Assembly (NCBI GenBank): GCA_017511465.1
Contig: JAFWJU010000017.1
Coordinates: 1-64,000, forward strand
DNA: 64,000 nucleotides
Direction of reading: 5' to 3'
From: Eggerthellaceae bacterium
Lineage (GTDB): Bacteria; Actinomycetota; Coriobacteriia; Coriobacteriales; Eggerthellaceae
Below the pieces are notes generated by a model. That model was not told the origin of the DNA, searched no databases, and saw only the letters and a program-made list of their open reading frames with translations. Positions 12,234 to 63,287 of the stretch are shown here, in pieces. Every line of letters starts with the position of its first letter. Position 1 is the stretch's first letter. Position numbers and translations under genes: made by a program.

Positions 12234-12358
12234 GCATGTCATATGACAGGTGCCTTGCACTTGCAACACCTACGTCACGATATCGGCAATTGACCTAATT
12301 CACCGCGTTCCCAGCCTACGCGCATTGTACAATGTGCAGGTTGAGAGAAAGGTGCCCC

Positions 12359-14311
12359 ATGTCTGGTGAAGCGTTGATCAAAACCGCTAATGACCTGCGG
12401 ATAGACATTGTCAAAATGATCGGTGCGGCTGGTAGCGGCCATCCCGGTGGATCCCTGTCCTGCGCCGACATCATGACGGCGCTGTATTTCGGTGGCGTGA
12501 TGGATTACGACGTTGCCGACGAGCAGGCGCCGAGCGACCGTTTCATCATGGCGAAAGGCCATGCGGCGCCGGCTTTATATGCCGCGCTCGCACACGCCGG
12601 CTACTTCCCGCGCGAAGAGCTCATGTCGCTGCGCAAATTCGACTCCCGCCTACAAGGGCATCCCGATTCCAATCTCGTGCCCGGCGTCGAAGTGTCGACC
12701 GGCTCGCTCGGGCAGGGCCTTTCCATCGCAGCGGGCCTGGCTGCAGGCTTGCGTTTGAACGACGACGATCATGCGGTGTTCGCGCTCCTTGGTGACGGCG
12801 AATGCCAAGAAGGACAGGTATGGGAAGCGGCCATGTTCGCCGCGCATCAAGGCCTTGACAACCTGGTTGCCATCGTCGACCGCAACTGCCTGCAAATTGA
12901 CGGCAACACCGGTGACGTGTGTGATCCGGGTGACCTGGGAGCCAAGTTCGCCGCATTCGGTTGGGAAGTGGCCGAAGTTGACGGCCACGACATCGATGCG
13001 GTTATCGAAACGCTGAACGCTGCCAAGGCAACCCGTGCCGGCAAACCGCATGTCATCATCGCCCACACCATCAAGGGCAAGGGCGTCAGCTTCATGGAGG
13101 ACCAGGCGGGCTGGCATGGCAAGGCACCCAATGCCGATCAGCTTGCAGTGGCCTTGGCCGATTTGGGTTATAACGCTGCTGCAGAGGAGCCTTCGGAACC
13201 CGCCTCAGCTCCCGCTCCTCGCTCCGAGCTAAGCAGCTGCGGAACTCGCTCGCAAAGCTCGCTCGAACAGTCCTCGCTCCCGCTTAGCTCTACGCTCGTC
13301 GCAGCTTCAGAGGGTTCCTCAGGCTCCTCCGCAGCCGCAGCACCTAAGCTTCAAACTAACCCCGATATGCCGAAAAAGGCCACTCGCGCGGCGTATGGCG
13401 TGACGCTTGCGCAGCTCGCCGACGAGGGGCTTCCCATCGTGGCGGTCGATGCCGATCTCACCGGCTCCACCACGACGGCCAAGTTTGCCGCGGCCAAACC
13501 CGAATATGCCAATCGCCTGTTCAATTGCGGCATTGCCGAGCAGAACATGACCGATGTGGCTGCCGGCTTGTCTCTGGCAGGCAACATCGCCTTCACGGGC
13601 AGTTTCGCCGTGTTCGGCACCGGGCGTGCGTACGACCAGATTCGCAACACCGTGTGCTATTCGAACCTCAACGTCAAAATCGCCCCGACGCATGCCGGCA
13701 TTTCGGTGGGTCCCGACGGTGGTAGCCATCAGATGCTCGAGGACATCTCGCTCATGCGCGGTCTTCCCAACATGCGCGTTCTCGTCCCGTCGGATTACGC
13801 GACGGCAGCCGCCGCCATTCGCCTGGCAGCCAACACGCCGGGTCCGTTGTACGTGCGCATGGGCCGCGAATCGGTTCCGTGCGTGTACGCCGACGACACC
13901 GAGCTCACGCTCGGTGGTTCGTTCAGGCTGCGCGAAGGCGCCGATGCCACCATCGTGGCGTGCGGTCTCGAGGTGCGCGAAGCTCTCATCGCCGCAGACA
14001 TGCTGGCTGAAGAGGGGATATCGGTCGACCTCATCGATGCGTACAGCGTCAAGCCGCTGGATGCGCAGGCCATCGTCGCATCTGCGCAAAAGACGGGCTG
14101 CGTCGTCACCGCCGAGGAGCACAGCGTGATTGGCGGTTTGGGTTCAGCTGTTGCCGAAGCGCTTGCGTCTGGCTGCCCCGTGCCCATCGAATTCGTCGGA
14201 ATGAAGGACAAGTTTGGCAAGTCTGGCGGCTATGCCGAGCTGTCTGCGCACTTCAAGATGGATGCTGCTGCGATTGCTGATGCTGTGAAGACGGTTATCG
14301 CCCGCAAATAG
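12359..14311 (+). CDS. tkt: Transketolase with N- and C-terminal halves joined by a repeat-derived linker
   Basis: Thiamine-diphosphate enzyme of the pentose phosphate pathway, 650 residues. The N half (1 to ~270) has the TPP-binding signature GDGECQEGQVWEA through IVDRNCLQIDG, plus GHPGGSLSCAD. The C half (337-650, starting MPKKATRAAYGV) has the pyrimidine-binding and transketolase C domains (NCGIAEQNMTDVAAG, YVRMGRESVP). Many bacteria encode these halves as two genes. Here a Ser/Ala/Pro-rich linker (about 272-328) joins them, encoded by a palindromic element also found elsewhere in the window. The ATG has AAAGGTG upstream. Residue 337 is a Met without a ribosome-binding site, so separate translation of the C half looks unlikely. 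Confidence 0.92.
   Translation: MSGEALIKTANDLRIDIVKMIGAAGSGHPGGSLSCADIMTALYFGGVMDYDVADEQAPSDRFIMAKGHAAPALYAALAHAGYFPREELMSLRKFDSRLQGHPDSNLVPGVEVSTGSLGQGLSIAAGLAAGLRLNDDDHAVFALLGDGECQEGQVWEAAMFAAHQGLDNLVAIVDRNCLQIDGNTGDVCDPGDLGAKFAAFGWEVAEVDGHDIDAVIETLNAAKATRAGKPHVIIAHTIKGKGVSFMEDQAGWHGKAPNADQLAVALADLGYNAAAEEPSEPASAPAPRSELSSCGTRSQSSLEQSSLPLSSTLVAASEGSSGSSAAAAPKLQTNPDMPKKATRAAYGVTLAQLADEGLPIVAVDADLTGSTTTAKFAAAKPEYANRLFNCGIAEQNMTDVAAGLSLAGNIAFTGSFAVFGTGRAYDQIRNTVCYSNLNVKIAPTHAGISVGPDGGSHQMLEDISLMRGLPNMRVLVPSDYATAAAAIRLAANTPGPLYVRMGRESVPCVYADDTELTLGGSFRLREGADATIVACGLEVREALIAADMLAEEGISVDLIDAYSVKPLDAQAIVASAQKTGCVVTAEEHSVIGGLGSAVAEALASGCPVPIEFVGMKDKFGKSGGYAELSAHFKMDAAAIADAVKTVIARK
13172..13342. repeat. 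Palindromic repeat element, copy 1, in frame inside transketolase
   Basis: An imperfect palindrome of about 171 bases. Outer arms GCTGCAGAGGAGCC and GGCTCCTCCGCAGC match at 13 of 14 positions, and the inner GAGCTAAGC / GCTTAGCTC is a perfect 9-bp pair. The core shares AAGCAGCTGCGGAACTCGC and AACAGTCCTCGCTCCCGCTT with the intergenic copies at 19395-19553 and 55550-55730. It contributes a multiple of three bases without a stop. The peptide includes SSCGTRSQSSLEQSSLPL. Confidence 0.85.
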
Positions 14312-19376: not shown

Positions 19377-19394
19377 TTAAGGGCGAGCGTTGCG

Positions 19395-19553
19395 CATTCC
19401 GAAGCGCCGTTCGGTGACTCGTGGGCTGCGAGGAAGTGCAGGCGAAGCGGGAGCGAGGACTGTTTGAGCCCGCGTAGCGGGCGAGTTCCACAGCTGCTTC
19501 GCCGGAACGACGAGCGGTTAGCCCACGTCGGAGCCGAACAGCGTTTCGGAATG
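19395..19553. repeat. Palindromic repeat element, copy 2, between rnr and ldt
   Basis: A ~159-base imperfect palindrome fills the gap between two convergent genes. Outer arms GCATTCCGAAGCG and CGTTTCGGAATGC are nearly complementary, middle arms GGCGAAGC / GCTTCGCC are exact, and the centre is GCCCGCGTAGCGGGC. The reverse strand matches the core of the copy at 55550-55730 almost base for base, including the 20-base block AACAGTCCTCGCTCCCGCTT. It could act as a bidirectional terminator, though there is no T-run. Confidence 0.85.
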
Positions 19554-24162: not shown

Positions 24163-24190
24163 TATGGACCGGAGTTCGATTCTCCGCGCC
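24163..24190 (+). repeat. Inverted copy of the tmRNA 3' end
   Basis: These 28 bases are the exact reverse complement of 24242-24269, the T-arm and acceptor part of the tmRNA gene. They lie on the far side of the tmRNA terminator, so a read-through transcript could fold back on the tmRNA 3' domain. Confidence 0.9.
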
Positions 24191-24234: not shown

Positions 24235-24602
24235 TGGTGGAGGCGCGGAGAATCGAACTCCGGTCCATAGCGAATCCCTGGTCAGGCTCTACAAGCTTAG
24301 TCAATGCTCGGGTTTAAAGATTGATCGGCGCATCGACGTGCGTCGCAACCTCGAGTCGGTTCTGTCTTTCCTTCGACCATACCGGCTACGTGCCGAAGGG
24401 CATTTCCCTAAAATGACACCGCATCCAGGGCGGGAAAGCACCTGAAATTGGCGTGCCGACTTATGTTATGCGGCAAGGGCGAGTTGACGCCCAGAAGTTT
24501 GAGTTTTGCCAATTAATTTTGACAGTACCCCTGTTTATCGTGGCGAGGAGACCACGACCTGCTCCTCACCTCAGACCCACCATGTCGAAACCAGTCGCCC
24601 CC
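24235..24602 (-). ncRNA. ssrA: Transfer-messenger RNA
   Basis: Minus-strand gene of about 368 bases. The 5' end reads GGGGGCGACTGGTTTCGACA, the tmRNA hallmark, and the 3' end has a T-arm (GGAGTTCGATTCTCC) and encoded CCA (complement of 24235-24237). The 7-bp acceptor pairs with one G-T. The tag reading frame (24466-24510, minus) ends in Leu-Ala-Leu-Ala-Ala-stop and reads GKTQTSGRQLALAA if it resumes at GGC. The resume codon is inferred only from the frame and the length. Its partner gene smpB is nearby. Confidence 0.95.
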
Positions 24603-55549: not shown

Positions 55550-55730
55550 AGAAGGTGTTGCGTCGCGGCGTCACTCTCGCCTCCAGCGCGGACTAACCGC
55601 TCGTCGTTTCGGCGAAGCAGCTGCGGAACTCGCCCGCTTCGCGGGCTCAAACAGTCCTCGCTCCCGCTTCGCCTTCACTTCCTCGCAGCCCGCGAGTCGT
55701 TGAGAGCGACGTCGCGGCGCAACATCTTCT
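55550..55730. repeat. Palindromic repeat element, copy 3
   Basis: An imperfect palindrome of about 181 bases. Its outer arms are AGAAGGTGTTGCGTCGCGGC (55550-55569) and the near-complement GCGGCGCAACATCTTCT (ending 55730). Inner arms are GGCGAAGC / GCTTCGCC, and the centre is GCCCGCTTCGCGGGC. The core is nearly identical to copy 2. The remaining ~110 bases up to 55843 hold no clear feature beyond the cyclophilin ribosome-binding site. Confidence 0.85.
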
Positions 55731-58274: not shown

Positions 58275-58398
58275 TTTGAAGCTGAGGGGACGGGCGAAGG
58301 GGTTCGGGCTTGTCCTCGGCTAAACTGATGCGAACGATTCAGTTTGTGTCTGCGGAATCGCCCTTCACCCCTTCGCCTGTCCCCTCTGATTCAAAGGG
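58275..58398. repeat. Long inverted repeat between ndk and the hydrogenase operon
   Basis: GAGGGGACGGGCGAAGGGGT (58284-58303) and ACCCCTTCGCCTGTCCCCTC (58367-58386) are complementary at 19 of 20 positions, extended outward by TTTGAA / TTCAAA. A smaller hairpin AAACTGA / TCAGTTT lies in the loop. The GGGGACNG centre recalls the palindrome at 857-891. This is the main content of the 286-base gap; no gene is present. Confidence 0.8.
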
Positions 58399-63188: not shown

Positions 63189-63204
63189 TCGTCCCAAATA
63201 AAAA

Positions 63205-63251
63205 CGCGTCCCCGAGCGCTTCCATCATGAATGGAAGGCGTCGGGGACGCG
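63205..63251. terminator. Bidirectional terminator between NUDIX and methyltransferase genes
   Basis: CGCGTCCCCGA (63205-63215) and TCGGGGACGCG (63241-63251) form an 11-bp base stem with further imperfect pairing inside and A/T tracts outside. It serves two convergent genes. Confidence 0.75.
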
Positions 63252-63287
63252 GTTGAAAACGTTACCCAGAATTCCGGGGATTACCGC

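Follow-up and report, generated by a model that had tools for sequence, protein, structure and literature searches.

The linker between the two halves of a fused transketolase in an Eggerthellaceae bacterium contains one copy of a dispersed, structured palindromic repeat, which is a passenger in a permissive part of the protein. The window, a 64,000-nucleotide stretch of contig JAFWJU010000017.1 of assembly GCA_017511465.1 in which all coordinates are given, is contig C73 of the 1.89-Mb draft genome G000. Its tkt open reading frame spans positions 12332–14311, with a likely ATG start at 12359, and encodes a full-length transketolase with a Transketolase_N domain at residues 18–283 and a Pyr domain beginning at residue 349 (Pfam/NCBIfam). 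The two chains of the split-gene transketolase of Carboxydothermus hydrogenoformans (PDB 6yak and 6yaj; PMC7661550) match the halves flanking the tkt linker and align to residues 9–270 and 334–646; the linker therefore sits exactly at the natural break. By contrast with the C. hydrogenoformans enzyme, the halves form one open reading frame here, joined by a variable linker of 68 residues. An imperfect palindrome encodes residues 273–327, as the first-pass annotation of this DNA had claimed, and window positions 13175–13338 constitute one of 26 copies in the genome. The reading frame was said to be kept through the element, and the tkt frame is indeed intact. The features of the window are as follows.

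12359..14311, + strand: tkt, fused transketolase of 650 amino acids, host gene of a repeat copy (Pfam/NCBIfam domains; 6yak/6yaj break at the linker)
13175..13198, + strand: left outer arm of the tkt copy, copy-specific (inverted repeat I1; no other occurrence in the genome)
13199..13319, + strand: palindromic repeat core of the tkt copy (covariance model R1, 105 bits)
13234..13277, + strand: conserved centre CAGCTGCGGAACTCG..CTCGAACAGTCCTCGC of the tkt copy (near-invariant columns; the motif recurs across phyla)
13320..13338, + strand: right outer arm of the tkt copy, mirroring the left (inverted repeat I1)
19411..19531, − strand: intergenic repeat copy with its own arms at 19394–19414/19534–19554 (I5; R1, 131 bits)
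55583..55703, + strand: intergenic repeat copy with its own arms from 55550 to about 55730 (R1, 133 bits)

The repeat core is a palindrome of about 120 nucleotides with covarying stems and a conserved centre of 45 nucleotides, which is bulged and nearly invariant, reading CAGCTGYGGAACTCG...CTCRRACAGTCCTCGC (also CTGCGGAACTCG...CTCRRACAGTCCTCGC). The covariation of the stems is strong: 15 of the 33 consensus pairs in the aligned cores contain compensated changes, and 98 cells are changed on both sides, compared with 32.5 ± 4 after shuffling and at most 10 with the partners slid. The inverted repeat I1 of the tkt copy has 36-nucleotide arms (13175–13210 and 13303–13338) that are 78% complementary, and the copy folds with a minimum free energy of −74.7 kcal/mol (z = −3.8 relative to dinucleotide shuffles). 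The covariance model R1, which was trained on 27 copies, scores the tkt copy at 105 bits, with an E value of 1.4e-25 for the window search and of 4e-24 for the genome search. A DNA search and the covariance model identified the same 26 loci in G000, mostly intergenic, of which 24 are complete. Because both genome searches give these 26 loci and the tkt copy has an E value of 4e-24, its core match is far above background; the model search was a check proposed with the first-pass annotation. The core blocks that had been reported to recur at 19.4 and 55.6 kb do so, both exactly at 55.6 kb and with one mismatch in the first block at 19.4 kb, and in BLAST comparisons the tkt core is 78% (E = 2e-18) and 81% (E = 3e-17) identical to these copies, respectively. 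Cores within one genome are on average 86% identical. Two of the 26 copies (L025 and L026) are interrupted by another palindromic repeat (GGACCGAGCGCCCGGAAAA..), which lies within the core, or substitutes for part of it, both there and in the murD copy L086 of genome G008. No Rfam family covering the repeat scored above its gathering threshold in the window or the loci, and a literature search for the literal repeat sequence returned only primer-like matches in unrelated papers.

The element lies precisely where split transketolases are divided, which invites the explanation that it fused tktN and tktC by bridging both genes, and in the relatives examined outside the genus transketolase is encoded by two adjacent genes. 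However, fusion is not restricted to genes containing the element. A comparison of tkt among relatives, with the linker measured from residue 270 to 339 in all genes compared, identified nine congeners (G007, G014, G004, G001, G011, G012, G008, G006, and G009) with a fused tkt that lacks a repeat copy and has a different linker of 42–58 residues: 46 in G004, 58 in G007, and 42–54 in the others. The gene is split in congeners G003, G005, and G010. Genome G004, the closest relative by linker sequence, has the fusion and the same C-terminal linker end as G000 (AAPKLQT.PD.PKK; AAPKLQTDPDLPKK versus AAAAPKLQTNPDMPKK), but no element. An unfiltered model search revealed no decayed copies of the repeat in other tkt linkers. 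The tree of tkt proteins requires three changes between the fused and split states, none of which is tied to the element; therefore, fusion or re-splitting occurred more than once. The earlier suggestion that the element created the fusion thus fails, and it is very improbable that the two genes were joined in this way. Since fused congeners, including G004 with its shared linker end, lack the element, the sequences indicate that the fusion came before the element, which inserted into a linker that already existed and was changing fast. As the tkt fusion is common to congeners without it, the element is a passenger in this permissive segment. The other suggested role, an expansion of the linker, is supported: the element made it longer, by about 22 residues relative to that of G004. 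Transketolase alternates between split and fused forms within this one genus (L055–L084), and the sister genomes G003 and G007 have split and fused genes, respectively. The tkt linker of G007 contains a palindrome unrelated to the repeat.

At least four genes of G000 contain copies with intact reading frames: tkt, murD (L022; TIGR01087, 359 bits), a U32 peptidase gene (L015), and an ABC transporter gene (L019), the last three of which were assigned from Pfam/NCBIfam. The copies are located in loops or inter-domain linkers, in MurD between residues ~222 and 280, in the U32 peptidase behind the DUF3656 part, and in the ABC transporter between the membrane and ATPase domains. After orienting, the four genic copies share one reading orientation, in which two of the three frames are usually stop-free (39 and 47 of 50 copies), so that translation can continue through an element inserted in this way. 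This pattern would fit random insertion followed by selection for the readable, harmless cases. The phase encoding SSCGTR... is used in the tkt and U32 peptidase copies, and that encoding AAEL.R...SDSPRSR in the murD and ABC transporter copies. The first-pass annotation placed the tkt peptide in the same phase in other copies, which is correct for the U32 peptidase (SSCGTRSLRELKQSSLTASPTLLAAS) and not for the two further copies in the window, which are intergenic and untranslated. The murD site is empty in G005 and G010, and in G003 and G007 it contains species-specific repeated hairpins unrelated to the repeat family. These hairpins (L087 and L088) belong, in each of the two genomes, to a separate REP-like family of about 30 nucleotides with dozens of copies, and lie in frame in the same murD loop.

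The repeat is kin to known intragenic palindromic repeats, and what is new is its anatomy with copy-specific arms. A resemblance to Rickettsia palindromic elements had been proposed and holds for behaviour: both are dispersed palindromes that occur in frame within unrelated protein genes, here the four named above, where the encoded peptide is tolerated at permissive places. The likeness is one of behaviour, since the present repeat has a core of about 120 nucleotides, long private arms, and a conserved bulged centre, and belongs to a different lineage. REPs resemble the repeat in being short palindromes, mostly intergenic but in some cases within open reading frames, and their dimers are common (PMC3733652); they measure 20–40 base pairs and have a GTAG or CGTC tag. 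By contrast, the present repeat is far longer (about 120 nucleotides plus arms) than a 20–40-base-pair stem and does not flank the resident Y1 transposase gene. CGTC is present within its core, though not as an end tag. The repeat does not have the shared fixed terminal inverted repeats and direct target-site duplications of MITEs, as its ends are conserved for only about 9 nucleotides, its arms are copy-specific, and the clearest comparison with an empty site shows a mirrored flank rather than a direct repeat.

Besides G000, the repeat family occurs in 12 of the 14 congeners listed and, in a scattered way, elsewhere in the order. An exact search for the centre motif returned at least 118 stretches, and the matches listed belong to Coriobacteriia, many Betaproteobacteria, Patescibacteria, Gastranaerophilales, and Myxococcota. 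The centres from other phyla (L172–L251 and further loci) have different stems and often form inverted pairs 200–1100 nucleotides apart; the open reading frames between paired proteobacterial copies, considered as possible genes of the mobilising enzyme, had, by eye, nothing obvious in common. Mobilisation as a REP element by a RAYT (Y1) transposase would be in keeping with a palindromic, dispersed, mostly intergenic repeat that in other phyla sometimes occurs in inverted pairs, and intragenic REPs encoding 20–30 amino acids are on record (PMC3733652). However, the sole Y1 gene found in G000 (G000:C129) lies between GAATAACCAWTTGGGGAC palindromes rather than copies of the repeat, and G007, which is 96% complete, has the repeat and zero Y1 matches. 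The repeat is therefore not placed among REP/RAYT elements, and this origin is unlikely; the search did not identify a mobilising enzyme.

The repeat has short conserved ends (ACGCTGAAGC.. and the reverse complement TCTCTGAAGC..), and the arms beyond are specific to each copy. The two arms of one copy often pair perfectly over 25–37 nucleotides, and nearly every copy has such private arms, each complementary to its partner but not to the arms of other copies. Among 49 copies from G000 and related genomes, most of which are draft assemblies, 41 have own arm pairs above the 99.9th percentile of pairs combined from different copies. The private matching arms hint at an unusual insertion route. 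Two sources of the arms have been rejected: copying from elsewhere in the genome, as none of the 24 G000 copies tested has arms with a second occurrence, and derivation from phages in the manner of spacers, as there were zero matches in a phage collection. The proximal 22 nucleotides of the arms contain a weak register-specific signal (34% identity versus 28% in shuffled arms, z = 11.5) that is absent further out, so the arms may partly consist of old element sequence. In the ortholog pair L037/L050, the arms decay uncorrected, with six of 30 positions different between the left arms and one of 30 between the right arms.

At several sites, one arm extends into the end of a neighbouring gene and is mirrored by the other. 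In L031 of G005, the last 15 coding nucleotides of a gene (..LVVE*) form part of the left arm and recur inverted in the right, the two arms being identical at 56 of 57 positions; a gene end (..KSVE*) is likewise mirrored across L021 of G000, and the arms of L032 in G009 are identical at 64 of 64 positions, stop codon included. The cleanest pair of filled and empty sites, L052 in G003 and L125 in G007, differs by a 193-nucleotide insertion between TTTAG and ACGCG that ends in CTAA. The five flanking bases TTTAG are mirrored as CTAAA, and the stop codon of the neighbouring gene is supplied by the mirror copy. The inner 33 nucleotides of the arm are absent from the empty site; thus, plain flank duplication does not explain the whole arm. 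The L032 locus of G009 (L129 and L130) is 97–99% identical in G005, far above the general similarity of the genomes, which suggests recent transfer. Another mirrored flank in the window involves sequence near the 3′ end of the tmRNA, of which a perfect 28-nucleotide inverted copy is located outside the gene (24163–24190 and 24242–24269). The window also contains a second kind of hairpin at 58275–58395, with 29-nucleotide arms that are 90% complementary and a 63-nucleotide middle (CGGGCTTGTCCTCG..TGCGGAATCGCCC), and G003 (L107) and G007 (L109) have similar middles between different arms. An intergenic, terminator-like hairpin of 24 base pairs with a 5-nucleotide loop is located at 63202–63254.

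The stem pairing, mirrored gene ends, and mirrored TTTAG are predictions of fold-back or template-switch synthesis. During or after insertion, one arm would arise as a fold-back copy of the other, and the copying would extend into a little of the adjacent flank, which would leave perfect arms and an inverted flank duplication at the site. The most probable account of the tkt copy is, in our judgement, that a hairpin repeat settled as a passenger in the linker of an already fused gene and gained its private arms by such copying. A template-switch process producing a reverse-complement copy has been described in general (PMC8794818), and the hairpins formed by it likewise have a stem created or repaired in one event and mirrored flanks. 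That work concerns RNA genes and sporadic events, whereas in the present family such arms belong to nearly every copy.

The arms might instead be those of long hairpins, terminators or REP-like sequences, that were present before the core inserted into their loops. Long hairpins that lack the core do occur in the genus, among other places at L035 and at the murD position also occupied by the repeat, the L017 site has different cores in related arms, and the short-loop hairpin of 24 base pairs at 63202 would be a target of this kind. However, the empty sites corresponding to L019, L017, L021, L004, and L052 contain no hairpin with those arms, none of the G000 arms is a copy of a repeated hairpin, and a pre-existing terminator would not be expected to contain mirrored coding sequence from gene ends (L031 and L021), so that this reading is rather unlikely. 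Slightly less so, although still doubtful, is a scheme in which arms and core move as one element, the arms diverge fast with their pairing restored by template switching or selection, and their uniqueness reflects age. It could account for the signal in the proximal 22 nucleotides, the compensatory changes all along the stems, and the L017 arms of G000 and G003, which share TGGTGGGAGGG and differ in compensated ways; at L052, moreover, the arms arrived with the core. The scheme is difficult to reconcile with cores that are on average 86% identical in one genome and arms that are near 34%, and with the slow, uncompensated arm change between L037 and L050, and many arms are 100% paired, which suggests youth. 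The fold-back account of the tkt copy may be extended, tentatively, to a mode of spreading: a hairpin with the bulged 45-nucleotide centre found across phyla would gain one of its arms, whenever it inserts, as a fold-back copy of the other arm and its flank. If this were true, the arms of each copy would be private and perfect, and the target would be duplicated in inverted rather than direct orientation. We know of no precedent for the insertion of a small element by fold-back arm synthesis at each insertion.

The congeners show that a palindromic repeat is able to settle in the linker of a central metabolic enzyme whose halves it did not fuse, and the repeat has likewise settled in murD, a U32 peptidase gene, and an ABC transporter gene. 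The copy-specific arms and mirrored gene ends are a natural record of how a hairpin repeat inserts or grows. The spread of small palindromic repeats without a known transposase thereby becomes testable by strain comparison, and the centre shared across phyla provides a sequence handle toward the mobilising enzyme.
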